Virus record (IMG/VR): IMGVR_UViG_3300025118_000005
Span: 1 to 64,000 of that record
Strand: one strand, 5' to 3'
DNA: 64,000 bases
Source: a virus
The position numbers were made by a program, and so were the translations under genes. This document shows, one piece after another, positions 10,451 through 26,087 of this stretch (its first letter is position 1; each line of letters starts with the position of its first letter). Below the pieces are notes generated by a model that saw nothing but the letters and a program-made list of their open reading frames with translations, was not told the DNA's origin and searched no databases.

Positions 10451-10479
10451 TTGACTTTATTTCGGATATAAAAGATAAT
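10451..10479 (+). promoter_or_regulatory. leaderless-type promoter
   Basis: -35 TTGACT (10451-10456), 17-bp spacer with TTCGGA, -10 GATAAT (10474-10479). ATG 10486 is 7 nt beyond the -10. Confidence 0.75.
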
Positions 10480-10485
10480 TTTGTT

Positions 10486-10701
10486 ATGGCAAAAAAAGTA
10501 AAATTAGATGGTGAAACACTAAAGTTAGCTCGACGCTATGAGATGGCATGGCACAACCTATTCTACAAGAAAGCAAGAGGGATGCAGCAAATGATAATTG
10601 ACGAGCCTCATGGGAGGCACGCTAATGAATTAGCTAAGGAAGTAAGAAGGATGGCGGAGAACGAAGATATAGAGATAGAAGTAAGTGGGAAGATATATTA
10701 A
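10486..10701 (+). CDS. hypothetical protein, 71 aa
   Basis: Basic protein (MAKKVKLDGETLKLARRYEM) with helical character, GRHANELAKEVRRMAENED near the end. No SD; the ATG lies exactly where transcription should begin. No family recognised. Confidence 0.7.
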   Translation: MAKKVKLDGETLKLARRYEMAWHNLFYKKARGMQQMIIDEPHGRHANELAKEVRRMAENEDIEIEVSGKIY

Positions 10702-10720
10702 TTTTATTAATTTTATTAGC

Positions 10721-10749
10721 TTGACTCTAATTCGGAAACCGACTATACT
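10721..10749 (+). promoter_or_regulatory. promoter with CGGAAACCG spacer
   Basis: -35 TTGACT (10721-10726), 17-bp spacer, -10 TATACT (10744-10749); ATG 10759 follows after 10 nt. Confidence 0.75.
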
Positions 10750-10758
10750 GGTTAAAGA

Positions 10759-11040
10759 ATGAGCGAAAAAAAGAAACGTAAGTCGGGCGCGGGACGTAAA
10801 AAAGGAAGCGTGAGCTTTTGCCTAGTGCCATTAACTGAATTAAATGCAAAATTACCTACTGGCGCGATTATCGTAGTGAGTAGGAAATACTGCGAGGCAA
10901 TGTCTATTGAAGGACAACCTGTTGTATCCACCCCAAGCATGATGATGCCAATGGCAGTAGCGACCAAGGCGAACGCAGTCCAAGTCACTAATCTTAATGA
11001 CGAGGAAACTACCCCCGAATTAAGCGTTGACAACTGGTAG
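10759..11040 (+). CDS. hypothetical protein with basic N-terminus, 93 aa
   Basis: Starts MSEKKKRKSGAGRKKGSVSF, resembling an AT-hook-like Arg/Lys/Gly tail that could bind DNA, then a beta-rich middle and a Met-rich patch (STPSMMMPMAVAT). The 3' end holds the -35 of the next promoter. No family recognised. Confidence 0.65.
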   Translation: MSEKKKRKSGAGRKKGSVSFCLVPLTELNAKLPTGAIIVVSRKYCEAMSIEGQPVVSTPSMMMPMAVATKANAVQVTNLNDEETTPELSVDNW

Positions 11041-11055
11041 GAAACCCTTTATACT
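11027..11055 (+). promoter_or_regulatory. promoter inside 3' end of preceding gene
   Basis: -35 TTGACA (11027-11032), 17-bp spacer with GGAAACC, -10 TATACT (11050-11055). The two candidate ATGs of the next gene are 6 and 9 nt beyond the -10. Confidence 0.75.
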
Positions 11056-11060
11056 TATTA

Positions 11061-12035
11061 ATGATGACTGAAACCTACTTCCCCGATATTATCGGACAAG
11101 AAACTGTTAAAAAAGCACTCGGCTTTTACATTGACGGATACCAGAAAACTGGTGTGATACCGCATCTCATGTTTACTGCGCCTCGCGGGTGTGGCAAGAC
11201 TACGATGGCAACGGCAATGGCAAAGAACCTTACAAAGAACGGTTCTATCAAGCCTCTCATTACCCTTAACTGTTCCACTGTCAAATCATTGAAGCAGTTT
11301 TTCAATATGATTGTGATACCGCACATGGTTGACACTGACGCAACCGTGCTGTTCGATGAGTGTTCTGAATTGCCAAAGGACGTTACGATGGCACTCTTGA
11401 CCATCACCAATCCAAACCCACGCAACCGTAACGAATTTTCCTATGAGGATTACAACGTGGAGTTTGATTACAGACGCTTGAGTTTCATGTTCGCCACCAC
11501 TGAAGGTCAGAGTATCTTTCATGCACTGATGGACAGGATGGAGCGCATCGACTTGGAAGAATATAAGTTAGATGAATTGGGCAAGATTGTCATGCTGGGC
11601 CTTGAAGGCTACACCGTTGAGAGCAACGCACTAAAGGAAGTCGCGACCGTTCTCCGTGGTAATGCGCGAGCAGGGCAGAAGATGGCAATGAAGATGAAGC
11701 TATTTCTTAATGCTAAAGATAAGGTGAATTTCAATATCAGCGATTGGAAGGAACTCACGGGTAAACTCGGCATCCTGCCTCTCGGCATATCCATACAGGA
11801 ACTCAACCTTATGCGTTACATGGCGCGGAAGAAAACTACTCGCCTCACTGAACTGTCTGCTATCACTGGACTCTCCAAGGGGGCAATCCAGAAGGACTAT
11901 GAATTGTATCTTTCTAAAATGGGTCTAATGGAGATTCAACCAGAGGGACGTTCCCTCACAACAAAAGGGATAGACTATCTTAATGAGCTTGATGGAGTTA
12001 AGAAGCACAAGCGAGACAAGAAAAGTAAAAAATAA
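11061..12035 (+). CDS. RuvB-like AAA+ ATPase (Holliday-junction helicase / clamp-loader type)
   Basis: 324 aa. FPDIIGQETVKKAL at the N-terminus, Walker A APRGCGKTT (40-48), Walker B TVLFDE (95-100), sensor-1-like FMFATTEG, and a sensor-2 region RGNARAGQKM like the RGTPRIA segment of RuvB. A C-terminal winged helix follows (TRLTELSAITGLSKGAIQ) and a Lys-rich tail. Probably drives branch migration or loads a replication or repair factor. No RuvA or resolvase gene is seen next to it. Start is ATG 11061 or 11064, both next to the predicted transcription start. Confidence 0.82.
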   Translation: MMTETYFPDIIGQETVKKALGFYIDGYQKTGVIPHLMFTAPRGCGKTTMATAMAKNLTKNGSIKPLITLNCSTVKSLKQFFNMIVIPHMVDTDATVLFDECSELPKDVTMALLTITNPNPRNRNEFSYEDYNVEFDYRRLSFMFATTEGQSIFHALMDRMERIDLEEYKLDELGKIVMLGLEGYTVESNALKEVATVLRGNARAGQKMAMKMKLFLNAKDKVNFNISDWKELTGKLGILPLGISIQELNLMRYMARKKTTRLTELSAITGLSKGAIQKDYELYLSKMGLMEIQPEGRSLTTKGIDYLNELDGVKKHKRDKKSKK

Positions 12036-12063
12036 ATATAAGATAGATGACGAGCCTTTCCAG

Positions 12064-12285
12064 ATGACGCAGTTCGAATGGCGGGGCACATTAAATAATG
12101 GTGATTTATTTGTAGTTATAAAATATAACCTTGGAGCTTGGAAAGTGAAATATGCTGAAACAGAATATGAGTTAAATAATACTAATTTTATTTATGTAGC
12201 TCAACACCCAAAGCCTTTAAGTTTTTTATATAATAATAATGATTTAGATATAGAACAACTTCTAACATATATACAATGGAAATAA
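12064..12285 (+). CDS. hypothetical protein, 73 aa
   Basis: Frame ends at TAA 12285. Start uncertain: ATG 12064 (MTQFEWRGTLNNG) lies after the RuvB-like stop, while an in-frame ATG at 11983 would overlap that gene by 53 nt. Beta-rich sequence with GDLFVVIKYNLGAWKVKY; no family recognised. Confidence 0.55.
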   Translation: MTQFEWRGTLNNGDLFVVIKYNLGAWKVKYAETEYELNNTNFIYVAQHPKPLSFLYNNNDLDIEQLLTYIQWK

Positions 12286-12297
12286 TGAAAAATAATT

Positions 12298-12326
12298 TTG
12301 ACTTTAGTCTGGAAGTAGGCTAATAT
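12298..12326 (+). promoter_or_regulatory. promoter of a short non-coding transcript
   Basis: -35 TTGACT (12298-12303), 17-bp spacer with GGAAG, -10 TAATAT (12321-12326). Predicted start near 12333, directly before a hairpin and a terminator. Confidence 0.6.
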
Positions 12327-12331
12327 ATAGA

Positions 12332-12405
12332 TAGTGAGCGCAATGCTCACGTTCGTTCATCATCATCGAATCCTCTCCGTGTGAAAACGGGGGGGATTTT
12401 TTTTG
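12332..12405 (+). ncRNA. candidate small RNA or attenuator leader (~70 nt)
   Basis: Begins with hairpin GTGAGC-GCAAT-GCTCAC and ends with a terminator (AATCC...CCGT-GTGAAA-ACGG...GGATT plus eight T, 12369-12404). A 13-codon frame inside (MLTFVHHHRILSV, with three consecutive His codons) ends in the terminator stem, which is the layout of an attenuation leader, but no histidine-related gene follows. Confidence 0.5.
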
Positions 12406-12460
12406 TATTTAACCTCATGGAGTGTAGATAATAAATAAGGCCTTGCTGTATTTTACAGGC

Positions 12461-12610
12461 AAGCTCGAACAGGTTATGTTAAAATAAGTTTGAAGAATAG
12501 GCTCGCTAAATATATGACTTAAATATACTTCGAAGAAATTAGGCTTGAAATATAGTCTCGTTAAATATGACTTCGAAATATAGGTTGGTTAAATATGAGA
12601 CCGAAATAAA
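12461..12610. repeat. iteron-like AAATAT array
   Basis: AAATAT occurs at 12508, 12521, 12548, 12563, 12576 and 12591, with AAATAA at 12604: spacings of 13, 27, 15, 13, 15, 13 nt, i.e. multiples of 13-15. TTCGAA occurs between copies. No gene. Could be an origin iteron array, a regulator binding array or a degenerate non-coding repeat. Confidence 0.5.
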
Positions 12611-12705
12611 GCAAAAATAAACAGCCTAAATAAGTAAGGCAATATAATACGTAACGTCCATCGTTAGCGTTAAAGTTCTTGATTGAATGTTATCGTTAAA
12701 GTGCC

Positions 12706-12740
12706 GACCCGTCCCGTCCCGATTTTGAGACCCATTCTCA
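12706..12740. repeat. composite element GACCCGTCCCGTCCCG + TGAGA-N5-TCTCA
   Basis: A 35-nt element almost repeated at 20047-20081: GACCCGTCCCGTCCCG, then a TGAGA/TCTCA inverted repeat. The rest of 12611-12888 holds no gene; GACCCCACGAAAACAGG (12805) recurs at 21413. Confidence 0.6.
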
Positions 12741-12888
12741 GTTTCTTAAAAAGGGCGATTTCTCCGGTGCGAAATCTCTCCACACAAGAAATTATTTGAT
12801 GTCCGACCCCACGAAAACAGGTATATCGTCCAAAACAATTACCCTATATAAACGCGATTAATTAGCCTAATTGATTTGCCGCTCACGA

Positions 12889-12970
12889 ATGATTGACAAA
12901 CTATTTAGCCAATCAAAATTCACGAAAAATGATTGACAAAGTAATTTGCCGCTCAAAAATGATTGACAAA
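12889..12970 (+). repeat. three direct repeats ATGATTGACAAA
   Basis: Copies at 12889-12900, 12929-12940 and 12959-12970. The first and third are preceded by TTTGCCGCTCA, so the unit is ~25 nt. Each holds a TTGACA; the last forms the -35 of a promoter for the DUF932 gene. Confidence 0.7.
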
Positions 12971-13027
12971 AAAAATGCGTGTGATGTACATTATATGCTT
13001 GCTTGTGATTCGGAAAAATGAGATAAT
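12963..13027 (+). promoter_or_regulatory. tandem promoters for the DUF932 gene
   Basis: P1: TTGACA (12963-12968) with TACATT (12987-12992), spacer 18. P2: TTGCTT (12999-13004) with GATAAT (13022-13027), spacer 17 including CGGAAA. Leader then has AAAGGAA before ATG 13070. Confidence 0.6.
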
Positions 13028-13069
13028 TATAACAGTGAAGAAAACAACGAACAAAAGGAAATCAAGCTT

Positions 13070-14121: not shown

Positions 14122-14167
14122 TGTGAATAAGTTTGTTCTTGACTTGGAAACGGATGTATAGTATTAT
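14122..14167 (+). promoter_or_regulatory. leaderless promoter with DnaA-box-like site
   Basis: TGTGAATAA (14122-14130; TTATTCACA on the other strand), 8-bp gap, -35 TTGACT (14139-14144), 17-bp spacer, -10 TATTAT (14162-14167), ATG at 14174 (7 nt). Confidence 0.75.
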
Positions 14168-14173
14168 ATTAAC

Positions 14174-14383
14174 ATGATGAACGAATTAGATCAACTCAAG
14201 GAAGACATTTGCATGGAGAGCTTCGGTCGCAGCCGAAATCTCGCGCTAGCCGCAGGGCAGTGCGTCAAGTGCGGAACCTACGACCTCAACTTCCGCGATG
14301 AACCATCGCAGCGTGAGTACAAGCTCACTGTGTGGTGTCAGTCGTGCCAAGATGATTTCTTCGGCGTAGGGGAGGAGGAATAG
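14174..14383 (+). CDS. small zinc-ribbon protein, 69 aa
   Basis: Contains QCVKCG and WCQSCQ, two CxxC pairs 25 residues apart, the pattern of a zinc ribbon. Acidic tail (GVGEEE). The start codon coincides with the predicted transcription start. Possible regulator or adaptor; the family is unknown. Confidence 0.7.
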   Translation: MMNELDQLKEDICMESFGRSRNLALAAGQCVKCGTYDLNFRDEPSQREYKLTVWCQSCQDDFFGVGEEE

Positions 14384-15328: not shown

Positions 15329-15357
15329 TTGACTTTATGGTAAAAATGGGTTATATT
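15329..15357 (+). promoter_or_regulatory. leaderless promoter
   Basis: -35 TTGACT (15329-15334), 17-bp spacer, -10 TATATT (15352-15357), ATG 15364 (7 nt). TGTGAATAA lies 28 bp upstream of the -35. Confidence 0.75.
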
Positions 15358-15363
15358 ATACCC

Positions 15364-15480
15364 ATGAAGGCGAGAAAGACCAAGTACGGATTCATGGGAA
15401 GCGCGTCCCGCGAGCATCGCGTGAAGAAGGGCAAAGGTTCTTTCAAGCGTAGAAAAAAACACCAGAAAAAGCTTGACTGA
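15364..15480 (+). CDS. small highly basic protein, 38 aa
   Basis: 38 residues, about half of them Lys/Arg (KARKTKYGFMGSASREHR at the start, KRRKKHQKK near the end). Likely binds nucleic acid or ribosomes. Promoter and ATG are in register with the leaderless pattern, which supports translation despite the length. The stop codon overlaps the next -35. Confidence 0.6.
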   Translation: MKARKTKYGFMGSASREHRVKKGKGSFKRRKKHQKKLD

Positions 15481-15501
15481 CAAGCGGAAAACCCTTATTC
15501 T
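15473..15501 (+). promoter_or_regulatory. promoter inside the 3' end of the basic-protein gene
   Basis: -35 TTGACT (15473-15478), spacer with GCGGAAAAC, -10 TATTCT (15496-15501). The second in-frame ATG (15509) is 8 nt past it. Confidence 0.6.
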
Positions 15502-15508
15502 TATGAAG

Positions 15509-15943
15509 ATGATTATGGACGATATAAAACTCACTTACATTCCCGACTCTCACGGCTTTATCAAAGTCTATATTTCCGCCAAGGACGGGGAAACAGTAGA
15601 GGCATGGTTTAATGCCTTTTGGAATCACAACGCCACCAGCAATGAAGAAATCGAATGGATTTTTGATAATGAGGGCGCGTTTTGCTCGAATTGGAAAAGG
15701 TTCACCAGTGCTATACAAGATATTTTCTTGTTTTCAATTCTAAACGAAAACGAGGACGCTTACAAGGGCGAAAAGGGCGGAGCAATGCCACGCGCAAAAG
15801 AATTGGCAAAAGCTAAAATTGACAGCATGGAGAAAAAAGACGGCTCCATGCGATACGGGCGAATCGGTCACGTTTATACGCTGGGCGAGGTTGTTACTAA
15901 CGATGAAAAATCTTTCTTCTCTGGAAAATCCGCAGGAGAATAA
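15509..15943 (+). CDS. hypothetical protein, 144 aa
   Basis: Start set at ATG 15509 because the promoter removes upstream ATGs at 15473 and 15503. Alpha/beta protein with IYI/VEAWFNAFW and a C-terminal glycine-containing tail (GRIGHVYTLGEVVTNDEKS). No family recognised. Confidence 0.65.
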   Translation: MIMDDIKLTYIPDSHGFIKVYISAKDGETVEAWFNAFWNHNATSNEEIEWIFDNEGAFCSNWKRFTSAIQDIFLFSILNENEDAYKGEKGGAMPRAKELAKAKIDSMEKKDGSMRYGRIGHVYTLGEVVTNDEKSFFSGKSAGE

Positions 15944-15945: not shown

Positions 15946-15974
15946 TTGACACAGGGGGAGAAATCCCCTATAAT
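15946..15974 (+). promoter_or_regulatory. consensus promoter for GP88-like gene
   Basis: -35 TTGACA (15946-15951), 17-bp spacer with a GGGG/CCCC inverted repeat, -10 TATAAT (15969-15974). Confidence 0.8.
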
Positions 15975-15982
15975 TGGAGTTG

Positions 15983-16744
15983 ATGATGAAATTGAAATTC
16001 GGAGAGCCAAACTCTAAACTTAAGAAATTGGCAAAGAAACTAAAACTGAAACTCAAGACGTTTTCCTTGCCTAGTGGCTGGACGTGTGGAGGTGCGAAAG
16101 AATGTTTTTCACGCGCAGACCGTGAGACTGGAAAAATCAAAGATGGAAAGCACACAAAATTTCGTTGCTTTCAAGCAAGCGCGGAAGCTGTTTACCCATC
16201 ACTACGCAATGCCGTTTGGCACAACATGGATTTGATTGATGCGATTTTGAAAGATCACACAAAAGAATGTAAGTGGGAACCAATCGCGGATTTGATTTGC
16301 GAAAGTCTACCCAAGGCTGACATTTACCGTGTCCACGTTGGCGGTGATTATTTTAATTATGATTACATGATTGCATGGTGTGAAGTTGCGAGGCGACACC
16401 CTGACAGGATTTTTTACTCCTACACGAAGAGCCTTCACTTGTGGACGTTGTTTCCAAAATGCACAGATGGAACTCGCGCAGGAATCCCACCCAATTTAAT
16501 TCTAACCGCATCGCGTGGTGGGCATTATGATAGTAAGATAGAAGAAAATGCTTTCAAGTGCGCGGAAGTTGTTTTTAGTGAGCAAGAGGCAATCGACAAA
16601 GGATTGGAAATTGACCACGACGACGAACACGCAGCGTTTGGCAAATCATCTTTTGCGTTGTTGCTTCATGGTGTGCAACCGAAGGGCAGCGAAGCAAGCA
16701 AGGCGTTGTCAGCAATCAAACGACTAGCCAAGGTTACGGCGTGA
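15983..16744 (+). CDS. GP88-like phage protein
   Basis: 253 aa. LPSGWTCGGAKECFSRADRE near residue 30, then FRCFQASAEA and a long region with HVGGDYFNYDYMIAWCEVAR and YTKSLHLW, matching the GP88-type family found in mycobacteriophages and marine phages. Several conserved Cys suggest a metal or Fe-S site. The function of this family is not established. Start at ATG 15983 or 15986, 9-12 nt past the -10. Confidence 0.7.
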   Translation: MMKLKFGEPNSKLKKLAKKLKLKLKTFSLPSGWTCGGAKECFSRADRETGKIKDGKHTKFRCFQASAEAVYPSLRNAVWHNMDLIDAILKDHTKECKWEPIADLICESLPKADIYRVHVGGDYFNYDYMIAWCEVARRHPDRIFYSYTKSLHLWTLFPKCTDGTRAGIPPNLILTASRGGHYDSKIEENAFKCAEVVFSEQEAIDKGLEIDHDDEHAAFGKSSFALLLHGVQPKGSEASKALSAIKRLAKVTA

Positions 16745-16860: not shown

Positions 16861-17470
16861 AGTGATGAGGGAAACCTTATCGGCTCTTTGAAACAATTTA
16901 TGTTGCGGAAATTGGTGCGAAATCTCGTTTAGAGACTAGCAGTCTGGTAGCCGAAAGTGAATGCTCTGGGAAAACGTATCCATAACAAGGAGCAGGAGCG
17001 AAACGATAGGTATCGGGCGGGGTTCGAATCCTCAACGCGACGACAATTTAGCATAGGTGACGGAACAAACGTCCGACAGAGGAAACGGCCTATGCGACAA
17101 TTTAAGCTGACGACGGTCGGCTTAAGGGTATGGCTGAATATCCCTCCATCATAAGGGGAAAGGCATAGGGCCATGTGAGAGAGTGCAATCGTATGACTTG
17201 CATGGTTCTAGTAAGCTGGAAACAAGAACTGTATTGTGCACTGGCTTTGTAGGTAATGCAGCAATCCTACTACCCATTAATTTTCGTGGTGCTGGATTAC
17301 AGGCCATGATTAACAGACGCGCCTCAAACGGAAAGCAGGGAAGTATTCCACCTGTCGGCAAGAGAGGGAAGCCGTGGCGCGATAACTGAGAACTCACAAT
17401 TTTTCCTGTGGTCGGTACAACCGTTAAAGAGATTGTAGGTACCAACGCCGAAGTCCGCCACGTCACTTTT
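16861..17470 (+). ncRNA. large structured non-coding RNA (~600 nt; GOLLD/ROOL-type candidate)
   Basis: No credible protein over 600 nt although frames are open. The transcript would start with GATGAGG-GAAA-CCTTATC. Further stems: AGACT-AGC-AGTCT (~16934), CGAT-AGGT-ATCG (~17004), GCATAGG/CCTATGC enclosing GACG...CGTC (~17053-17097), TTAAGC/GCTTAA (~17101), AGTGCA/TGCACT enclosing GTTCT/AGAAC (~17182-17245), GTAGG/CCTAC (~17249) and a 3' CACTTT/AAAGTG stem near 17465. A GGTTCGAATCC T-arm-like loop lies at 17021-17031. Size, phage context and tRNA-like T-loop are those of giant phage RNAs such as GOLLD and ROOL; the class name is inference, the structured RNA itself is well supported. Confidence 0.72.
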
Positions 17471-17545: not shown

Positions 17546-17574
17546 TTGACTCGGATACAGAAAAAGCTTATACT
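17546..17574 (+). promoter_or_regulatory. promoter for lipoprotein gene
   Basis: -35 TTGACT (17546-17551), 17-bp spacer with TCGGATACAG, -10 TATACT (17569-17574). ATG 17584. Confidence 0.75.
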
Positions 17575-17583
17575 ATAAAAACG

Positions 17584-17964
17584 ATGAGAGATTATCCTCT
17601 AAAGAGATACGCACTTTTAATCCTGATTGTTTCGAATACTGGTTGCCAGATGACTCAGAAAGTGTGGAGTGGCGTTAAACAATCTTTTGACCCCACAATT
17701 GCCCGTGGGGTTAATTCAATGTCTCCTCAGCAGCGTTATGAAAGTGATTATGAAGCAGGGCTGCCAGTTAGTCCAGAACAGTATGGGATAAATGAGCAAG
17801 CATGGGATAACGAGCGGGTCTGGGGAAACATGCATAAAATTGGTGCTAGCAACTTTTACATGAGTAATGGTGGCAAAGCCGCATGGGAATTAAAAAGGGT
17901 ATATGACCCGACAACCAGAAAATTCAGGAACTACAGAAACGAATTCGAATATTTAAATCGATAA
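17584..17964 (+). CDS. predicted lipoprotein, 126 aa
   Basis: Signal peptide MRDYPLKRYALLILIVSNTGC, with lipobox SNTGC at residues 17-21. The mature part is Gln/Asn/Tyr-rich with MSPQQRYESDYEAGLPVSPE. The start follows the promoter; a longer frame from 17518 would be fused to the promoter. No family recognised. Early envelope protein, possibly exclusion-related. Confidence 0.65.
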   Translation: MRDYPLKRYALLILIVSNTGCQMTQKVWSGVKQSFDPTIARGVNSMSPQQRYESDYEAGLPVSPEQYGINEQAWDNERVWGNMHKIGASNFYMSNGGKAAWELKRVYDPTTRKFRNYRNEFEYLNR

Positions 17965-17979: not shown

Positions 17980-18008
17980 TTGACTCGGAAGCGGAAACCG
18001 AGTAAGAT
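17980..18008 (+). promoter_or_regulatory. promoter with GCGGAAACCG spacer
   Basis: -35 TTGACT (17980-17985), 17-bp spacer, -10 TAAGAT (18003-18008); candidate ATGs at 18021, 18024 and 18030. Confidence 0.7.
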
Positions 18009-18020
18009 AGAAACAGTTAG

Positions 18021-18473
18021 ATGATGATTATGAATAACCTACTATATAAAAACTACTGTGTCGGCGCAGAAATGCCTGACGGAACCATCCTGTTGTATGC
18101 TGGTAAGACCCGTAACCCTTTGTGGTATGGTGCGAATGCACGTGCCTGTGGAGGTTGGGCTGGTTACCCATCAGGATATTTTGACGAAATCCACGTTCAT
18201 CACAACTCGCCTAATGACAAGGCTCTTGAACAACGCCACATTAACACTGTCCGTGCTGTGGCTGCGCTCATGCCTGACGTTATTAAGTCGGGGAATATCA
18301 ACGATGATGGCTTTTATGGTTATCTCGGTGGTATTAGTCAACCTCTGTTCGATAAGATTGTAACATGGGTGCAAAGCACTCGTATTATGACCGAACGCCG
18401 AATGGAGGCAAACAAGCGTAAGTTGGCTCGTAAGTTGAGCCAGTTGCGGAAACAACAACAGAAGGCTAACTAA
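18021..18473 (+). CDS. hypothetical protein, 150 aa
   Basis: N-terminus MMIMNNLLYKNYCVGAEMPD, then GWAGYPSGYFDEIHVHHNSP, then a basic coiled-coil C-terminus (RRMEANKRKLARKLSQLRK). Start may be ATG 18021, 18024 or 18030. The His/Asp patch could bind metal. No family recognised. Confidence 0.7.
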   Translation: MMIMNNLLYKNYCVGAEMPDGTILLYAGKTRNPLWYGANARACGGWAGYPSGYFDEIHVHHNSPNDKALEQRHINTVRAVAALMPDVIKSGNINDDGFYGYLGGISQPLFDKIVTWVQSTRIMTERRMEANKRKLARKLSQLRKQQQKAN

Positions 18474-18485: not shown

Positions 18486-18516
18486 GGGGGAAGGGAAAAC
18501 TTCCCCCTTGACTTTT
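18486..18516 (+). terminator. terminator fused to next promoter
   Basis: GGGGGAAG (18486-18493) pairs with CTTCCCCC (18500-18507), directly followed by TTGACTTTTT, so the T-tract and the -35 of the next promoter are the same bases. Confidence 0.7.
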
Positions 18517-18536
18517 TAACAGTTATATGTTATATT
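18508..18536 (+). promoter_or_regulatory. promoter for cell-wall hydrolase
   Basis: -35 TTGACT (18508-18513), 17-bp spacer, -10 TATATT (18531-18536). ATG 18544 is 8 nt beyond. Confidence 0.72.
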
Positions 18537-18543
18537 TAATACA

Positions 18544-19191
18544 ATGAAAGCCTACCACTACATCATCGGAGCAATTATTTTTATCCTTGTCACTTTGGCT
18601 GCGGCTAAAGATGTAAAAAAGCAAAGACAAGAATTAAGATTTCCTTTTCAAACTCAACCTGTTGAAGTAGACCAGACACTTCCCGAACAAGCACCGAAGC
18701 TAGACCCAAAAGAGTTAATGAGGAGAAAGCATCTCCGAATTATCGCTTGCACCTTGTTGGCAGAAGCGCGTGGAGAGGGTACGGATGGAATGTATGCTGT
18801 CGCCGCTGTCATATCACAACGAGCATTAAATCGTAAAATGCACCCAGTAGACGTTTGCTTACAAAGGAAACAATTTTCTTGCTGGAATAGCAAAAGCCTT
18901 GATGCTTATAACAATCTTCTTGAATTAAAACCGTGGGGAGTATATGCCGTAAGAACAGCGAGGCTAGTCCTTGACGGTTACGAAAAGAATCAGTATTATC
19001 TTGCTCGTGAGGCATTTGGCTGGCCTGACCATTACCACGCTAAAGGAGTAAAGCCTTTTTGGACTAAAGGGCAACAGCCAGTGTGGATACTAAAGAATCA
19101 TATCTTTTACCGCTTAAACAAAAACGGAGTTCGTCATTATCCAGAAGGAACAGGCACACACTATAAACCAAAGCAATCGAAGTTCAAATAA
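18544..19191 (+). CDS. SleB-like cell-wall hydrolase (Hydrolase_2)
   Basis: 215 aa. An N-terminal hydrophobic segment (IIGAIIFILVTLAAA, residues 7-21) may be a signal anchor. The Hydrolase_2 catalytic domain spans ~65-200: CTLLAEARGEGTDGMYAVAA (the Glu is the likely catalytic residue), MHPVDVCLQRKQFSCWN, and DHYHAKGVKPFW...HIFYRL. This family cleaves peptidoglycan between N-acetylmuramic acid and N-acetylglucosamine. The gene is in the early region far from the late genes, with its own promoter, so it may be an endolysin with a signal-arrest-release anchor or an entry/superinfection factor. Confidence 0.85.
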   Translation: MKAYHYIIGAIIFILVTLAAAKDVKKQRQELRFPFQTQPVEVDQTLPEQAPKLDPKELMRRKHLRIIACTLLAEARGEGTDGMYAVAAVISQRALNRKMHPVDVCLQRKQFSCWNSKSLDAYNNLLELKPWGVYAVRTARLVLDGYEKNQYYLAREAFGWPDHYHAKGVKPFWTKGQQPVWILKNHIFYRLNKNGVRHYPEGTGTHYKPKQSKFK

Positions 19192-19403: not shown

Positions 19404-19652
19404 TTACCAATCGGGATATTCGTGGGCATCGTGCCATGCGTCATCCGCATACGTGCCATAGCCGTCATCCATGCTGCCGCCATCACCACAGCACCCACAG
19501 CAAGGCGCGTCCTCACAACGGGCATTCGCCTCGTCGTGATCTGCCTCAGTGGGCTCAGTGGGCTCATTCGCCCAATCGGCTGGCCCCATGTCCTCGGTGA
19601 AAGTTTCCTCGCAAGAAATGCGAGCGTCGTGGTTGTTGTTGTTATTCATCAT
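19404..19652 (-). CDS. Cys/Asp-rich small protein, 82 aa
   Basis: Leftward gene. Starts MMNNNNNHDARISCEETFTE, then an acidic tail with CCGCCG and DDGYGTYADD, i.e. clustered Cys that could bind metal. Real-gene support: the promoter upstream (-10 TACACT, 7 nt from the ATG, plus TTATTCACA) has the same geometry as the rightward genes. No family recognised. Confidence 0.6.
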   Translation of the reverse strand: MMNNNNNHDARISCEETFTEDMGPADWANEPTEPTEADHDEANARCEDAPCCGCCGDGGSMDDGYGTYADDAWHDAHEYPDW

Positions 19653-19658
19653 TTTTAG

Positions 19659-19703
19659 AGTGTAGCTGATTTTTAAGATTGTTACAAGGAAAAGTTATTC
19701 ACA
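19659..19703 (-). promoter_or_regulatory. leaderless promoter, minus strand
   Basis: Minus strand: TTATTCACA-type site (19695-19703), 7-bp gap, -35 TTGTAA (19682-19687), 17-bp spacer, -10 TACACT (19659-19664), ATG at 19652 (7 nt). Confidence 0.65.
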
Positions 19704-19953
19704 GGTTACTACCCGCTAGGAAATCCTCCTCCACACAGCCCAACTGACTCCAGCCATCTTCATGCACCTCCTGCACACGCTCACGGAAACGCTTCTCATC
19801 AAAGCGAGGGTGCGTATCCCTCAAACGGATACAGGTATCCGTAAGGACTGATTCACGGGATTCGTTGTCTTCGATCTCGCCCAAAGTGCAGGCGATGAAT
19901 TCAAAGTGGCGGCGGGTGAGGTTGAGGCTCGTGATTTGTTGTTTGTTTAACAT
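19699..19953 (-). CDS. small DNPRFD-type phage protein, 84 aa
   Basis: MLNKQQ... then LTRRHFEFIACTLGEIED and THPRFDEKRF. The segment H(x)EFIA...NPRFDExRF is shared with the gene at 26116-26370 and with a common orphan family of phage proteins that end DNPRFDxxRF. Start at 19953, set by the promoter; an in-frame extension to 19977 is inside it. Function unknown. Confidence 0.7.
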   Translation of the reverse strand: MLNKQQITSLNLTRRHFEFIACTLGEIEDNESRESVLTDTCIRLRDTHPRFDEKRFRERVQEVHEDGWSQLGCVEEDFLAGSNL

Positions 19954-19959
19954 GCTATA

Positions 19960-20014
19960 AATGTAACACAGAAACACCCATTTGTCAACCCACTATTTAA
20001 GAAAGTTATTCACA
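19960..20014 (-). promoter_or_regulatory. leaderless promoter with DnaA-box-like site, minus strand
   Basis: Minus strand: TTATTCACA (20006-20014), 17-bp gap, -35 TTGACA (19983-19988), 17-bp spacer, -10 TACATT (19960-19965), ATG at 19953 (7 nt). Confidence 0.75.
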
Positions 20015-20103: not shown

Positions 20104-20170
20104 TTATTCACAGGCTGTTGATAACTTTTTGAAAAAACCGCTTGACTTTTTGTCATTTATGGGTTATATT
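20104..20170 (+). promoter_or_regulatory. promoter with two DnaA-box-like sites
   Basis: TTATTCACA (20104-20112) and TGTTGATAA (20116-20124), 17-bp gap, -35 TTGACT (20142-20147), 17-bp spacer TTTTGTCATTTATGGGT, -10 TATATT (20165-20170). Leader ~20 nt to ATG 20195. Confidence 0.72.
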
Positions 20171-20194
20171 ATAACAACGAAAGCGAGAAAGATT

Positions 20195-20710
20195 ATGGTG
20201 ATGCTTGTGGCGAGAGCCTACAGACGGTCTAACCGTTGGAGCATTAAAACAGGGAGCGAGAAAGTCGCCCCACTCACCATTCATAGTTTACAGGATATGG
20301 CGGTATTCAGTCCGCGTAACGGGTATTGGATCCCACCACCCTTGCAGACTGTGAATAACTTTTTGAAAAAACCGCTTGACTTTGTGTCATTTATGTGCTA
20401 TATTATACGTATAGAGAGTAAGAAAAACAAGATTATGACAGAGATAGAACTAAAAAAACAAGAGGCGAAACTTCTCCTCAATCAGCAAGTGAAGATTCGC
20501 GCTCCTTGGAACGCCAACCTTCGCGGCCAAATCGCAACCGTCAAGGCCATCATGGCAGACGGTCAAACTCTTGACGTTGAGCTTGCTAATGGTAAGCACG
20601 CCTTTCTTGACGTGACTTTCGTGGATGAGATTCAAGAGCGGACACAGTTCGCCAAGACCGAGCAAAGCCTCGGCCCAATCGCCAACAGCGTTGTGCAAGA
20701 CGGAATTTAG
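20195..20710 (+). CDS. open frame running through the next promoter into the next gene
   Basis: ATG 20195 (context AAGATTATG, as in other genes here) starts a frame with no stop before 20710. Its first ~80 codons include the next promoter region, then it continues in frame into the gene at 20435. The N-terminal part is basic (ARAYRRSNRWSIKTGSEK) and unlike a known domain. Either a real N-terminally extended version or an artefact of the promoter element, which reads as NNFLKKPLDF in this frame. Confidence 0.35.
   Translation: MVMLVARAYRRSNRWSIKTGSEKVAPLTIHSLQDMAVFSPRNGYWIPPPLQTVNNFLKKPLDFVSFMCYIIRIESKKNKIMTEIELKKQEAKLLLNQQVKIRAPWNANLRGQIATVKAIMADGQTLDVELANGKHAFLDVTFVDEIQERTQFAKTEQSLGPIANSVVQDGI
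20350..20404 (+). promoter_or_regulatory. promoter with DnaA-box-like site
   Basis: TGTGAATAA (20350-20358), 17-bp gap, -35 TTGACT (20376-20381), 17-bp spacer, -10 TATATT (20399-20404); leader to ATG 20435. Confidence 0.75.
20435..20710 (+). CDS. hypothetical KOW/SH3-like small barrel, 91 aa
   Basis: MTEIELKKQEAKLLLNQQ helix, then VKIRAPWNANLRGQIATV, which has the charge and Gly spacing of a KOW/SH3-like strand pair. Start set by the promoter at 20376. It is in frame with the longer frame from 20195. Function unknown. Confidence 0.6.
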   Translation: MTEIELKKQEAKLLLNQQVKIRAPWNANLRGQIATVKAIMADGQTLDVELANGKHAFLDVTFVDEIQERTQFAKTEQSLGPIANSVVQDGI

Positions 20711-21361: not shown

Positions 21362-21384
21362 GGTAGGACAATACCTGTCCCACC
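21362..21384. repeat. GGTAGGAC-N7-GTCCCACC hairpin, copy 1
   Basis: Stem GGTAGGAC/GTCCCACC with one A-C mismatch and 7-nt loop; recurs at 21742-21766 and 25669-25693. Confidence 0.6.
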
Positions 21385-21461: not shown

Positions 21462-21490
21462 TTGACTTTTTGTCATTTATGGATTATATT
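21462..21490 (+). promoter_or_regulatory. leaderless promoter
   Basis: -35 TTGACT (21462-21467), 17-bp spacer identical to 20142 at most positions, -10 TATATT (21485-21490). ATG 21496 at 6 nt, ATG 21505 at 15 nt. Confidence 0.7.
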
Positions 21491-21495
21491 TAGGT

Positions 21496-21747
21496 ATGTT
21501 AAAGATGACAGAGAAACAAAAAGCCACTTATGAACTTTGGTTCTTGGGTGATGTCTACGAGTCTGGTGTTAAGACTCGCGAAACCTTCAACAGGTTTTTA
21601 GTTGAGGCTGGATCTCTCTTGCGTATCGCCATAGACGAGAAAATTCTCGTTGGTGGTGTTGAGATTGTAGAAGTCAGCCCTGACGGTAGGGTAGTTGATT
21701 CGGTTTGGTCAATGAATGTTGACGAATTTGAGAAAGTTAATGGGTAG
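21496..21747 (+). CDS. hypothetical protein, 83 aa
   Basis: MLKMTEKQKATYELWFLGDV helix, then a beta-rich segment with VEIVEVSPDGRVVDSVW. Start 21496 or 21505. Its stop codon lies in the repeated GGGTAGGAC hairpin. Not recognised. Confidence 0.65.
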   Translation: MLKMTEKQKATYELWFLGDVYESGVKTRETFNRFLVEAGSLLRIAIDEKILVGGVEIVEVSPDGRVVDSVWSMNVDEFEKVNG

Positions 21748-21779
21748 GACTACGGATGTCCCACCCTCTATGGTATACT
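21742..21779 (+). promoter_or_regulatory. hairpin plus extended -10 promoter
   Basis: GGGTAGGAC-N7-GTCCCACCC (21742-21766), then TGGTATACT (TG-n-TATACT, -10 at 21774-21779) with no -35 consensus. ATG 21786 at 7 nt. Confidence 0.55.
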
Positions 21780-21785
21780 AGACGC

Positions 21786-22025
21786 ATGAAGAATATGAAA
21801 AACAAAACTAAAACCTACAACGTAGAGTTTACGACAGCATTCGCTGGCTCTCGTTATATTAACATTGTCCTAGAGGCGATTGACTCTCACCAAGCTGAAT
21901 GGGTTGCTCGCAACCTTTGCCGCTTTGGTTACATTAGCAACACCACCGAAACCGATGAGGTTGCTGCTTACACTGAAGCAACTCACGATTGGGCTTATGA
22001 TGAAGATTACGAAGTTTACTCCTAA
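21786..22025 (+). CDS. hypothetical protein, 79 aa
   Basis: MKNMKNKTKTYNVEFTTAFA, then AIDSHQAEWVARNLCRFGYI. The segment A.D.HQA.WVARN resembles the DExHAxRI segment of the genes at 24635 and 25495, so these could be distant paralogs. Start set by the -10 at 21774. Acidic C-terminus. Confidence 0.6.
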   Translation: MKNMKNKTKTYNVEFTTAFAGSRYINIVLEAIDSHQAEWVARNLCRFGYISNTTETDEVAAYTEATHDWAYDEDYEVYS

Positions 22026-22824: not shown

Positions 22825-22986
22825 TTGGAAAACATAACACTAAACGAAAACGGAGATGCCGCCATTGTAGACGGCAAAGAATACCCAGTGCATGGCTTTG
22901 ACTATGCTGGATCAGAGGCAATCACAATCCCCGCATTGGATTTGATCTCTTACGACGATGGCGACACATGGGGAGACTTGGAATAA
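22825..22986 (+). CDS. hypothetical acidic protein with TTG start, 53 aa
   Basis: No ATG in frame; a TTG (22825) opens a 53-codon frame that ends in TAA overlapping the next ATG (TAATG). Acidic, with ENGDAAIVDGKEYPVHGF. The overlap and codon content support it. Start codon is inferred. Confidence 0.45.
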   Translation: MENITLNENGDAAIVDGKEYPVHGFDYAGSEAITIPALDLISYDDGDTWGDLE

Positions 22987-23198: not shown

Positions 23199-23265
23199 TT
23201 TGCGTTTGCAAGCATAGATTAGATTCGGCGATAAGTTTATAAAAAGACTTGACTTCTATAGGCGG

Positions 23266-23279
23266 CGGGACCGGTCCCG
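23266..23279. repeat. palindrome CGGGACCGGTCCCG, copy 5
   Basis: Perfect copy; TTGACT at 23249-23254 puts the palindrome centre 23.5 bp after the first T, where a -10 would lie. Confidence 0.8.
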
Positions 23280-23326
23280 AGCGCCATATTGACACACGAA
23301 AAACGCTATTTGTGCCACATTGTCTC

Positions 23327-23355
23327 TTGACTTTGTGTCTTTTATGTGGTATATT
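23327..23355 (+). promoter_or_regulatory. leaderless promoter
   Basis: -35 TTGACT (23327-23332), 17-bp spacer, -10 TATATT (23350-23355), ATG 23362 (7 nt). Confidence 0.75.
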
Positions 23356-23361
23356 ATAACA

Positions 23362-23460
23362 ATGAACAACGACATGAGAAGTTTTGAGATTTGGATTCTT
23401 ATCAGCATAGTGCTGTTTATCGGTACGCTTGCTTTCGGTTTTTACATCGAGAGCATTTAG
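23362..23460 (+). CDS. small single-pass membrane protein, 32 aa
   Basis: MNNDMRSFEIW then IDLE-like hydrophobic stretch (WILISIVLFIGTLAFGFYI) and ESI end. Real-gene support: consensus promoter with the 7-nt register. Similar micro-genes at 24206 and 24822. Confidence 0.6.
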   Translation: MNNDMRSFEIWILISIVLFIGTLAFGFYIESI

Positions 23461-23462
23461 AT

Positions 23463-23517
23463 TGTGAATAACTTTTTGAGAATATCGCTTGACTTTTTGT
23501 CATAAATGGAGTATATT
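23463..23517 (+). promoter_or_regulatory. leaderless promoter with DnaA-box-like site
   Basis: TGTGAATAA (23463-23471), 17-bp gap, -35 TTGACT (23489-23494), 17-bp spacer, -10 TATATT (23512-23517), ATG 23524 (7 nt). Confidence 0.8.
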
Positions 23518-23523
23518 ATAACA

Positions 23524-23973
23524 ATGAAAGAGATGAACAAGAAAACCTTAAAACCCTTATTCGACCTAGATGGCACGCTCATCAAGGAAGACAGAGACTC
23601 TGACAGGTTATTTGATTTCTTTCGCCCTCACGCGATTCTCGCACTGACAGAAGATGATTTGACTCCTCTCGGCATATTGGTCAGAGACTCTGGAAAAGAA
23701 TTTGACATCCTCACCGCAAGAGGTCATCAAAACGCGGAATTTGTTAGAATCGCTTTAAGTGCTCTCGGATTCAACGTAGGCAGAATTGTTACCGTTGGAA
23801 TCGACATTAACGAAGCTTCCGACTTGGATAACATCAGCAGCAAGAGAGTGGCTGAAAAGAAAATCAGAATTGCCAAATTCGTTCAACGTAAGCTAGTTGA
23901 CAACGACGAAAGAAACTTACGAGGATTAGGTGAGTTAGGTGAGTTAGTAAGTGAGACACAAACAGAATTTTAA
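23524..23973 (+). CDS. HAD-superfamily phosphatase-like protein
   Basis: 149 aa. Motif I FDLDGTLI (residues 13-20), motif II-like ILTARGH, a Lys in KKIRIAKF and motif III-like VDNDERN match the HAD fold. In phages this fold includes 5'(3')-nucleotidases and the 3'-phosphatase domain of polynucleotide kinase. No kinase domain is fused. The substrate is not clear from the sequence. Start set by the leaderless promoter; an in-frame ATG at 23506 lies inside it. Confidence 0.75.
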   Translation: MKEMNKKTLKPLFDLDGTLIKEDRDSDRLFDFFRPHAILALTEDDLTPLGILVRDSGKEFDILTARGHQNAEFVRIALSALGFNVGRIVTVGIDINEASDLDNISSKRVAEKKIRIAKFVQRKLVDNDERNLRGLGELGELVSETQTEF

Positions 23974-23975
23974 TC

Positions 23976-24004
23976 TTGACAAAGAAACAGAAAACCCGTA
24001 TACT
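23976..24004 (+). promoter_or_regulatory. promoter
   Basis: -35 TTGACA (23976-23981), 17-bp spacer with AGAAACAGAAAAC, -10 TATACT (23999-24004), ATG 24013 (9 nt). Confidence 0.75.
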
Positions 24005-24012
24005 ATAAAAAG

Positions 24013-24201
24013 ATGATGAAGAAAAACAAACTACCTATCGTTGGAAAAATTCAAGACATCAACGACGAATTCAACAAAGCATTTCGCGATGAAGTGATGA
24101 TGCCAATGGTCACGTTCGCCGTGACGCTCATGGTGTTCGCCGTGATGCTTGATTATTCGTTTCAACTCGTTGAAGCGATTGACATTATCCTAACCAACTA
24201 A
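24013..24201 (+). CDS. small membrane protein, 62 aa
   Basis: Charged N-terminus, then a hydrophobic segment (MPMVTFAVTLMVFAVMLDYS). A second gene (24206) with another membrane segment follows 4 nt later. No family recognised. Confidence 0.6.
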   Translation: MMKKNKLPIVGKIQDINDEFNKAFRDEVMMPMVTFAVTLMVFAVMLDYSFQLVEAIDIILTN

Positions 24202-24205
24202 GATT

Positions 24206-24322
24206 ATGAAAAACCTATTAAATGCAATTGATGACCTCCTGTGGCCTTTGGGTACCGCTCTACTCGTAATCCTTGCGAGCGTGCATTTCGTGCCTATGTT
24301 TATCGGCCTTTTGATTTTTTAA
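24206..24322 (+). CDS. small membrane protein, 38 aa
   Basis: One or two short hydrophobic segments (WPLGTALLVILASVHFVPMF and IGLLIF). Coupled to the previous gene by AAGATTATG. No family recognised. Confidence 0.5.
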   Translation: MKNLLNAIDDLLWPLGTALLVILASVHFVPMFIGLLIF

Positions 24323-24405
24323 GTAGTCACTAAAACCTACGCTTGAGCCCTGAGCTTGTTATCTATTCCAAGCTTGTAACGAAACAGCGTGATGATTATG
24401 ACTGC

Positions 24406-24454
24406 GACCCCCCTAGGGGGTACCCCCCCGGGGGCATACCCTTGGGGGGGTTAT
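24406..24454. terminator. G/C-run palindromes, probable terminator
   Basis: CCCCCTAGGGGG palindrome, then CCCCCCGGGGGC and CCCTTGGGGGGG, then TTATTATACT. A similar CCCCCCTAGGGGGG follows the gene at 24822. Confidence 0.5.
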
Positions 24455-24486
24455 TATACTATTAAAGGCTTGACATTATATAGCGG

Positions 24487-24581
24487 CGGGACCGGTCCTG
24501 CTTGGTACGTATACGTATAGTACGTATGCGTACAGTGTGTGTGTATGTGTGTGGTAGTACGTATGCGTACAGTGTGAATAA
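24487..24581. repeat. palindrome copy 6 and alternating purine-pyrimidine tract
   Basis: CGGGACCGGTCCTG (24487-24500, one change). Then TACGTATACGTA, two copies of GTACGTATGCGTACAGTG (~24520 and ~24558) and a GTGTGT tract: nearly perfect purine-pyrimidine alternation over ~60 nt, a sequence prone to Z-DNA. DnaA-box-like TGTGAATAA at 24573-24581. Confidence 0.6.
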
Positions 24582-24599
24582 CTTTTATTAAAAAAGCCC

Positions 24600-24628
24600 T
24601 TGACAAATGCCTTGGTGTGTGTTATATT
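24600..24628 (+). promoter_or_regulatory. leaderless promoter
   Basis: -35 TTGACA (24600-24605), 17-bp spacer, -10 TATATT (24623-24628), ATG 24635 (7 nt). TGTGAATAA ends 18 bp upstream of the -35. Confidence 0.78.
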
Positions 24629-24634
24629 ATTACC

Positions 24635-24802
24635 ATGATGAACGAAGAATCGATATACAAAGTAACCCTAGTCAAAGGGCCACAAACATCTATTATGCCT
24701 ATTAAGGCACGTGATGAGGCGCACGCTGTACGTATAGCGCAGCACATGGGCCTAGGCCTAGTGGTGAGGGTAGAATTCGCCTGTATAGACAATTTTAACT
24801 AA
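24635..24802 (+). CDS. hypothetical protein, 55 aa (paralog of 25495 gene)
   Basis: MMNEESIYKVTLVKGPQTSI and IKARDEAHAVRIAQHMG match the protein at 25495 (MMKTESIFDVTFEDGGSVFI, AMDEEHARRIVE). Shared pattern: ESIxxVTxxxG...A.DExHAxRI. Function unknown. Confidence 0.65.
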   Translation: MMNEESIYKVTLVKGPQTSIMPIKARDEAHAVRIAQHMGLGLVVRVEFACIDNFN

Positions 24803-24821
24803 ACAACAAAAGGATAAACAT

Positions 24822-24971
24822 ATGATAAGCATAGGATTCGAGACACTCGTAGGCATAGGGCTAGTAGCATACGCACTATGGAAAACAGATAAAAAGAATT
24901 TGGGCATAGTGCTCATTGGCTTGGCTGGTGTGGCATTAGCCATATTGGGTAGACATAGTTGTGGGTGGTAG
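24822..24971 (+). CDS. small membrane protein, 49 aa
   Basis: SD-like AAGGATAAAC before ATG. Two hydrophobic segments (FETLVGIGLVAYALW and LGIVLIGLAGVALAILG) with a KTDKKN loop. May be a holin-like or stress-type membrane peptide; no family assigned. Confidence 0.6.
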   Translation: MISIGFETLVGIGLVAYALWKTDKKNLGIVLIGLAGVALAILGRHSCGW

Positions 24972-25003
24972 GGGGTACACCCCCCACACCCCCCCTAGGG
25001 GGG

Positions 25004-25058
25004 TGTGAATAACTTTATTAAGAAAGCCCTTGACTTTTAGGTGATTATAGACTATATT
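25004..25058 (+). promoter_or_regulatory. promoter with DnaA-box-like site
   Basis: TGTGAATAA (25004-25012) next to CCCCCCTAGGGGGG, 17-bp gap, -35 TTGACT (25030-25035), 17-bp spacer, -10 TATATT (25053-25058); ATG 25067 (9 nt). Confidence 0.72.
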
Positions 25059-25066
25059 ACATACAG

Positions 25067-25285
25067 ATGAAGATGATAATGAAACTACTCGGAGCTAAGT
25101 ACATGGTCACCAGCCATGCTGGCACACGCTACTTCTGGAGGCTTAATGCAGCCATCAAGGCAGTACAGCATAACGTAAGCAGGGACATAGTATGGACGCT
25201 TAACTATAAGCCCGCTTATGTACATAACCCTGTATTCACCAGCGTACACCCTGACGCTGCTAACTATCACACTGCTAGGCCCTAG
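25067..25285 (+). CDS. hypothetical protein, 72 aa
   Basis: Three possible ATGs (25067, 25073, 25079). Basic, aromatic protein with RYFWRLNAAIKAVQHNVSRD. Not recognised. Confidence 0.55.
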   Translation: MKMIMKLLGAKYMVTSHAGTRYFWRLNAAIKAVQHNVSRDIVWTLNYKPAYVHNPVFTSVHPDAANYHTARP

Positions 25286-25372
25286 GGCGTACCCATCTAC
25301 TAACAAGCATGGACACAGGCTTATGTAAACAACACATACATCTTATATTAAAAGCTTGACATTGTATAGCAT

Positions 25373-25405
25373 CGGGACCGGTCCCGTTATTGAGAATTAG
25401 TCTCA
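25373..25405. repeat. palindrome copy 7 with TGAGA-N5-TCTCA
   Basis: CGGGACCGGTCCCG (25373-25386) and TGAGAATTAGTCTCA (25391-25405) in a 210-nt gap without a gene. TTGACA at 25356-25361. Confidence 0.8.
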
Positions 25406-25412
25406 TTACAAT

Positions 25413-25467
25413 TGTGAATAACTTTTTCATATTATCGCTTGACTTTTTGTCATTTATGAGGTATACT
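25413..25467 (+). promoter_or_regulatory. promoter with DnaA-box-like site
   Basis: TGTGAATAA (25413-25421), 17-bp gap, -35 TTGACT (25439-25444), 17-bp spacer, -10 TATACT (25462-25467). Leader ~20 nt to ATG 25495. Confidence 0.78.
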
Positions 25468-25494
25468 ATATGTATTGAGAGTGAGAGATTAAAG

Positions 25495-25668
25495 ATGATG
25501 AAAACAGAAAGCATATTCGACGTAACCTTTGAAGATGGTGGAAGCGTATTTATTCAAGCAATGGATGAAGAACACGCGCGCCGTATCGTAGAAACAAACA
25601 ACTTGTGGCGTTGGAACACTGAAGATGAGGGCCACGCTCGCACCGTAAGAAAGATTGAGAAAGTCTAA
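25495..25668 (+). CDS. hypothetical protein, 57 aa (paralog of 24635 gene)
   Basis: ESIFDVTFEDGG, then AMDEEHARRIVETNNLWRW: same ESI..VT and DEEHARRI signature as the 24635 protein. Start at ATG 25495/25498; longer frame from 25390 passes through the promoter and is rejected. The TAA is followed at once by the GGGTAGGAC hairpin. Confidence 0.65.
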   Translation: MMKTESIFDVTFEDGGSVFIQAMDEEHARRIVETNNLWRWNTEDEGHARTVRKIEKV

Positions 25669-25706
25669 GGGTAGGACAGCCTTTGTCCCACCCCTCGTGG
25701 TATACT
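25669..25706 (+). promoter_or_regulatory. hairpin plus extended -10 promoter, second copy
   Basis: GGGTAGGAC-N7-GTCCCACCC (25669-25693), then GTGGTATACT with -10 at 25701-25706. ATG 25713 at 7 nt. Same layout as 21742-21779. Confidence 0.6.
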
Positions 25707-25712
25707 TAACGT

Positions 25713-26087
25713 ATGAAAATGATTATGAAAGAACAAACTAACAAAGCAAACAACCTTCGCCTTGGAGCGATTTACATCAACACCAACACTGGCGCACCTT
25801 GCCGCTTGGTCAACATCGTTGCCTGTCAAGGCGTATGGTTAGAAGCCTATGACGGACAAGGCTATGGTGACCTTGTGAAATTCGAAGATGTAGCGTATGC
25901 TGACACGGATGAAGTCCAAGACTATTTGGATGACTATCGTGCTTACACCGCAAGCGAGAAAGCTCCAGCATACAAGCCAGAGCGTGAGTATGCTTACGGC
26001 AAAGAGATTGTGCGTGACTCTGATGGCTCTGCTGTTATCGGATGGTACGATGACAATGATGGCAACGACATTCGTTGCAGAGACTAA
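25713..26087 (+). CDS. hypothetical acidic protein, 124 aa (paralog of 14942 gene)
   Basis: LRLGAIYINTNTGAPCRLVN followed by VACQGVW resembles the N-terminus at 14942. A YLDDYRAYTASEK linker and a strongly acidic tail follow. Function unknown. Confidence 0.65.
   Translation: MKMIMKEQTNKANNLRLGAIYINTNTGAPCRLVNIVACQGVWLEAYDGQGYGDLVKFEDVAYADTDEVQDYLDDYRAYTASEKAPAYKPEREYAYGKEIVRDSDGSAVIGWYDDNDGNDIRCRD

Follow-up and report, generated by a model that had tools for sequence, protein, structure and literature searches.

The DNA analyzed here (the window) covers the first 64 kb of the linear 79,502-base IMG/VR virus record IMGVR_UViG_3300025118_000005, from a phage of an uncultured clade that encodes a T4-type large terminase (41736; PF03237), homologues of rIIA (5689) and rIIB (8559), a clamp loader (11061), a DUF932 protein (13070) and a GP88-family protein (15974). 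No close cultured relative was found, the top terminase match among phage records being only 27% identical. The first 26 kb hold many small genes behind sigma70-type promoters, a layout from which we infer that this is the early region. Our subject is the geometry of these promoters, in many of which the -10 element lies directly before the ATG of the first gene, most often with the A at the seventh nucleotide (nt) past the last -10 base.

Sixteen genes had been listed in a sequence-only reading as placed 6-8 nt past the -10 hexamer, and on re-measurement every hexamer and distance agrees: twelve lie at 7, those at 11061 and 21496 at 6, and those at 15509 and 18544 at 8. Thirteen carry a -35 box of the form TTGACW, matching at 5-6 of six positions and set 16-17 nt from the -10. 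At distance 7 on the forward strand are the ATGs at 726 (promoter and gene 691-1475; TTGACT-17-CATAAT at 691-719; 249 amino acids, aa), 10486 (10451-10701; TTGACT-17-GATAAT; 71 aa), 14174 (14139-14383; 69 aa, with a second ATG at 10), 15364 (15329-15480; 38 aa), 23362 (23327-23460; a hydrophobic peptide of 32 aa), 23524 (23489-23973; 149 aa) and 24635 (24600-24802; 55 aa). The same spacing holds on the other strand and in other promoter sub-types, as the reading had claimed: the reverse-strand genes at 19652 (19404-19687; TACACT, with a weak -35, TTGTAA) and 19953 (19699-19988; TTGACA-17-TACATT at 19988-19960) both lie at 7, as do 21786 (21771-22025) and 25713 (25698-26087; 124 aa), which lack a -35 and share the extended -10 promoter TGGTATACT (TGG-TATACT). 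The clamp-loader gene (11027-12035) begins ATGATG at 6 and 9; the gene at 21496 (21462-21747) has a further in-frame ATG at 15; that behind TTGACT-17-TATTCT (15473-15943) has ATGs at 2, 8 (15509) and 14; and the gene at 18544 (18508-19191) encodes a cell wall hydrolase (PF07486). In the late region there is only one such case, the ATG at 49579, 7 nt past TTGACA-16-TATAAT (49545-49770).

A promoter scan blind to start codons (TTGAC, spacing of 16-18, and TAxxxT with at least four of six matches) recovered 25 promoters in positions 1-26500, against 1.75 in dinucleotide shuffles. Measuring from the last -10 base to the A of the first ATG that opens an open reading frame (ORF) of at least 35 aa, 14 of the 25 fall at 6-10 (two at 6, five at 7, one at 8, four at 9 and two at 10), where shuffles predict 0.25 promoters with any ATG at 6-11. 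The remainder of the record has 12 promoters by the same scan, one of them, that of 49579, at 7. The effect is thus genuine, and it is concentrated in the early region. Further promoters of this class, absent from the earlier list, have their ATG at 9-10: those of 4268 (4231-4516; at 9), 10759 (10721-11040; at 10, 93 aa), the GP88 gene (15946-16744; TTGACA-17-TATAAT, ATGATG at 9/12, 15983/15986), 17584 (17546-17964; at 10), 24013 (23976-24201; ATGATG at 9/12) and 25067 (25030-25285; at 9). The distance peak becomes blurred under a looser test that takes every ORF of 60 aa or more and asks only for a five-of-six -10 ahead of its first ATG, because that ATG frequently is not where the gene starts. 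A generic pattern scan for promoter plus ATG gave, among the matches listed, mostly single, chance-like ones, and was not used.

Relatives with early regions were obtained through terminase and GP88 scans of IMG/VR; a scan of the same database with rIIA yielded none. The spacing recurs in about 20 of these phages. Across 20 main-clade loci, which together supply 250 distinct promoters, we find 13 at 6, 91 at 7, 15 at 8, 20 at 9 and 21 at 10 (160 at 6-10 in all), with every other distance claimed by at most four. Individual genomes behave alike: in G013, 20 of 27 promoters lie at 6-10, 13 of them exactly at 7; in G007, five of eight lie at 7; and G002 shows distances of 7-10. An exact-pattern search with the long promoter module found it nowhere else, so it is only the spacing, and not the module sequence, that is conserved.

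The same picture emerges gene by gene. The GP88 gene abuts its promoter in five genomes (at 9 in the window and at 9, 7, 7 and 12 elsewhere) and the clamp loader in three (6/9, 9 and 7). The gene at 23524 lies at 7 in both the window and G002, as does that at 726 (G002:122041). Orthologues of the cell wall hydrolase stand at 7, 7 and 11, those of 15509 at 10 in G002 and G013, that of 14174 at 8/11 in G002, that of 10759 at 9 in G002 and a distant one at 7 in G013, and those of 21496 (likewise distant) and 24013 at 7 in G013. Conversely, rIIA keeps a leader in all three genomes compared (ATG at 24 in the window, 27 in G002 and 33 in G013), and the gene at 25439-25668 retains its distance of 28 in G002. 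Hence, the apparently leaderless and the leadered states are each conserved gene by gene.

A sister lineage (G003, L265 and L272; early region in L102-L109 of G003, e.g., G003:132294-139364) adds a second register. Its ATG lies at 11 in 20 of 37 promoters (exactly so in 11 of 16 in G003), nearly always as GTTATG: among those 20, position 8 past the -10 is G in all, and positions 9 and 10 are T in 19 each, while in four promoters at 10 the GTT begins at position 7. A 3-nt GUU leader is predicted for these messages. A third state is seen in the GP88-bearing L308, L312 and L315, whose promoters are similar (TTGAC/TATAAT), with the ATG mostly at about 24-38, and whose GP88 genes start after GGAAA-type sites; in this group the terminase is distant in form or none was found. 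In a GP88 tree, one branch sets the leadered group apart (98/87) and another the GTTATG group (100/97). Two changes are needed for the register-7 group because L290, L292 and L294, in which no match to the terminase family of this phage was detected, fall apart from the main clade; this grouping may reflect independent origin or gene transfer.

The bases around the predicted start site carry a signature of their own. Promoters at distance 7 have C, T or A before the ATG, and G in only four of 91. When the ATG lies at 8, 9 or 10, position 7 is A in 10 of 15, 14 of 20 and 17 of 21, respectively; for those at 9, G occupies position 8 in 17 of 20; and in the G003 group GTTATG has its G at position 7 or 8. 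These preferences point to a start site at A7 or G8 whatever the distance of the ATG. With a purine standing where sigma70 transcripts usually begin, the predicted leaders would be 0 nt at distance 7, about 1-2 at 8-9, and 3 at 10 (or at 11 with GTT). The 5' ends of the messages so defined are A-rich (52% A in nt 4-18; AAA as codon 2 in 42 of 160), and the first 40 nt from the ATG fold weakly, with a mean minimum free energy of -2.18 against -3.11 in shuffles. Few GTG or TTG codons occupy position 7 among promoters that lack an ATG.

A predicted leader of 0-3 nt leaves no room for a Shine-Dalgarno (SD) site. Scoring duplexes with the 16S tail at -4.5 kcal/mol or better, we found an SD site in 16 of 37 late genes, 7 of 23 operon-internal early genes and 52 of about 300 random ATGs. 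Two of 15 promoter-proximal genes (23524 and 15983) have an SD-like match upstream, in both cases within promoter DNA. The reading had held that none of the abutting genes has an SD site, whereas late genes do. The first part fails literally, since an AGGAGG abuts the ATG of 726; it probably stands for the mRNA, in that this run and the GGAG of 15983 fall downstream of the -10 but ahead of the predicted start site and would thus be left out of the transcript. The second part holds for those 16 late genes and not for the others.

We consider it very probable that this clade makes leaderless or near-leaderless early mRNAs that are read from a 5'-terminal AUG. A sigma70-type polymerase would transcribe each promoter-first early gene from a -10 abutting the coding sequence, starting either at the A that opens the AUG or 1-3 nt upstream of that base, as position 7-8 past the -10 suggests. 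The resulting messages would lack an SD site, their 5'-terminal AUG would be recognized directly, and undissociated 70S ribosomes might translate them, by analogy with the lambda cI and phiYS40 messages. Downstream genes of the same transcripts, and most structural genes, would use ordinary leaders with SD sites in part; early polycistrons thus probably mix modes, with a leaderless first gene and leadered internal ones.

Several observations weigh against this interpretation or narrow it. Not every promoter keeps to the spacing: the window has at least five of the same type with the ATG at 13-31, namely those of rIIA (5637-7959), of 18021 (17980-18473; ATGs at 13, 16 and 22), those at 20142 and 20376 (20142-20710; at 25 and 31) and that of 25495 (25439-25668; ATGATG at 28/31). 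For 54 of the 250 pooled promoters, no 35-aa ORF opens with an ATG within reach, in some cases because the ORF is shorter or begins with GTG. Some genes could start at a second ATG (ATGATG, ATGAAGATG), such pairs being common. Seven incomplete phage records yielded no IF3 homologue, and ribosomal protein bS21 occurs in only one of the seven, G013, where it adjoins rIIA (51882-52031, reverse strand, in L101; PF01165, E 1.9e-14). The reading's "exactly 7" therefore survives as the mode of a distribution spanning 6-10 and not as a rule. Likewise, its inference that the mRNA begins at the ATG is upheld insofar as the spacing in relatives, the A7/G8 signature, the leadered contrast group and phiYS40 favor a start no more than about 3 nt from the AUG; a leader of invariably 0 nt is not upheld, given the predicted 0-3 nt and the leaders of about 18-25 nt kept by rIIA and others.

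Chance, or the choice of examples, is barely credible as an explanation. The earlier list was indeed selected, holding mainly fitting genes and leaving out those at 9-10 and 13-31; however, promoters found blind to the ATG give the excess over shuffles described above, and the pooled clade counts repeat it, which together refute this explanation. It is also improbable that the spacing merely reflects genome compaction, with promoters pressed against ORFs, the proteins made from read-through transcripts originating further upstream, and leaderless mRNA playing no functional part. Genes are densely packed in the early region, and SD sites occur before several operon-internal genes, as such a reading would have it, yet compaction predicts neither a fixed spacing on both strands, nor the A7/G8 signature, nor the 11/GTTATG register of the sister lineage. 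Nor is space in short supply, since many of these promoters are preceded by long non-coding stretches that contain palindromes.

Two further possibilities concern where transcription and translation begin. An unusual polymerase or start-site scanning could place the +1 well away from position 7-8, and the ATG at 11 rather than 7 in G003-like phages might be taken in this sense; but the -35/17/-10 layout is textbook sigma70, purines occupy positions 7-8 at every ATG distance, including the G of GTTATG, and phiYS40, whose middle and late mRNA is reported to be leaderless, has the same spacing, making such a displacement highly improbable. Less remote, though still unlikely, is that the 5' ends are as predicted and translation begins a few codons in, the AUG at +1 being only a ribosome-loading triplet. 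ATGATG pairs are frequent, and ATG is codon 2 in 18 of 160 genes. In the clamp loader, moreover, the first ATG is replaced in G002 (CTGATG) while the second, at distance 9, is conserved. Because of that replacement, the second ATG is the likelier start of 11061, for which the distance of 6 given in the reading is right as a measurement and doubtful as a start. Against this, most members at distance 7 have no second ATG nearby, and orthologues without the pair still lie at 7 (GP88 in G007 and G013; the clamp loader in G007). We accordingly prefer a 5'-terminal AUG that itself serves as the start codon for most of these genes.

The predicted arrangement is comparable to several known systems and departs from each. 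The mRNA of the lambda cI gene from PRM begins at its AUG; that is a single repressor gene, whereas here most of an early region is involved. Lambda is also named as the source of the first leaderless case (PMC3160421), and translation of leaderless messages is reported to withstand kasugamycin (PMC5230787). In the Thermus phage phiYS40, leaderless middle and late mRNAs have been reported (PMC3594737), and the genome passes our scan, with promoters at 16602, 30351 and 35165 on the forward strand and 21655 and 25282 on the reverse strand at distances of 10, 8, 8, 7 and 7, all five starts matching annotated coding sequences. As here, the -10 abuts the start codon in many phage genes. In contrast, phiYS40 uses leaderless mRNA for middle and late genes, whereas in the present phage the geometry marks an early-type region with one convincing late case (49579); further, the phylum of the Thermus host is rich in leaderless genes and the phage shifts host IF2/IF3 in favor of leaderless initiation, whereas other genes of the present phage partly use SD sites.

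The TA-led leaderless genes of bacteria (Zheng 2011, PMC3160421), and the -10-motif described in Deinococcus-Thermus (PMC12340547), offer a chromosomal parallel. Like TA-led genes, those described here have a TANNNT about 12 nt, from its first T, before the start codon and, by prediction, no leader. The -10 lies 6-8 nt before that codon, with a further share at 9-10; AUG is preferred as the 5'-terminal start and 5' structure is weak; and no SD site would lie in the mRNA leader, given the start sites proposed. Unlike them, they are viral and mostly have a strong TTGACW at 17 nt, the chromosomal genes often being without a clear -35. The likeness to phiYS40 and to TA-led genes thus comes with differences in timing class, promoter strength and phage lineage. 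T4 early and cyanophage promoters share the sigma70-type consensus and the many small early genes, but they have leaders of about 12-25 nt before the ATG: no promoter-abutting set was found in positions 1-50 kb of T4, and the ATGs of cyanophages S-SRM01 and Sf-FR1 lie 19-30 nt past the -10. Here a leader of that length with a ribosome-binding site is not the pattern, the exceptions being rIIA, 20142, 20376 and 25439. An abutting set is seen in this clade and in phiYS40, and not in the first 50 kb of T4, the two cyanophages or the leadered GP88 relatives.

Leaderless mRNA is usually seen as rare in phages, as with lambda cI, or tied to leaderless-rich hosts, as with phiYS40 in Thermus, and the open-access literature that we searched yielded no report of early genes being expressed in this way across a phage clade. 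We tentatively propose that the early programme of this clade could be mostly leaderless in an otherwise SD-using host, such that phage takeover might separate early translation from canonical initiation, and that the fixed GUU leader of the sister lineage might show the 5' end to be under selection. A fixed spacing in early-type genes only, with other genes and distant relatives leadered, would offer a natural experiment on leader loss. For annotation, the -10/ATG spacing predicts where dozens of tiny genes, overlooked by gene callers, truly start.

Other features of the region deserve mention. The 38-aa product of 15364-15480 resembles the ribosome-rescue factor ArfA (KKGKGSFKRRKKH), with counterparts in the early regions of many relatives, two of which, at 30.9 and 31.3 bits, pass the PF03889 threshold of 25.5. 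In many relatives its ATG, or GTG in G013, lies about 7 nt past a -10. A phage-encoded ArfA has been reported before, from pelagiphage HTVC027P (PMC12753301). The palindrome GGGACCGGTCCC occurs in six exact copies where none is expected (14081, 15256, 17502, 21330, 23267 and 25374), all non-coding and upstream of early promoters, and is probably a regulator site. Mostly a few tens of bases upstream of early promoters, on either strand, lies TGTGAATAACTTT, in eight exact copies (15292, 19691(-), 20002(-), 20350, 23463, 24573, 25004 and 25413) and a ninth with one mismatch (14122); its reverse complement includes TTATTCACA, which is similar to a DnaA box. An inverted repeat, GGGTAGGAC...GTCCCACCC, at 21742-21766 and 25668-25692 (also near 21363), directly precedes both extended -10 promoters that lack a -35 (21786 and 25713), and could be a terminator or an operator of that sub-type.

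The only genome match, through the terminase, was a contig of a Flavobacteriales metagenome-assembled genome, whose bin contains several terminase-like genes; it was dropped as host evidence because the contig shows no such promoters. Between the early and late blocks lie sugar-nucleotide and glycan genes (26800-35970), including RmlA, RmlB, RmlD-like, PseF-like and glycosyltransferase genes. A manA RNA (17105-17280; RF01745, 72.7 bits) lies inside a non-coding stretch of about 700 nt. A group I intron (59972-60185; RF00028, 67.7 bits) is found between genes ending at 59951 and starting at 60308, and its 5' end, TATAATATAATAGATTT, resembles a promoter in scans; G001 (L002:13020) has the same 5' end and G002 part of it.

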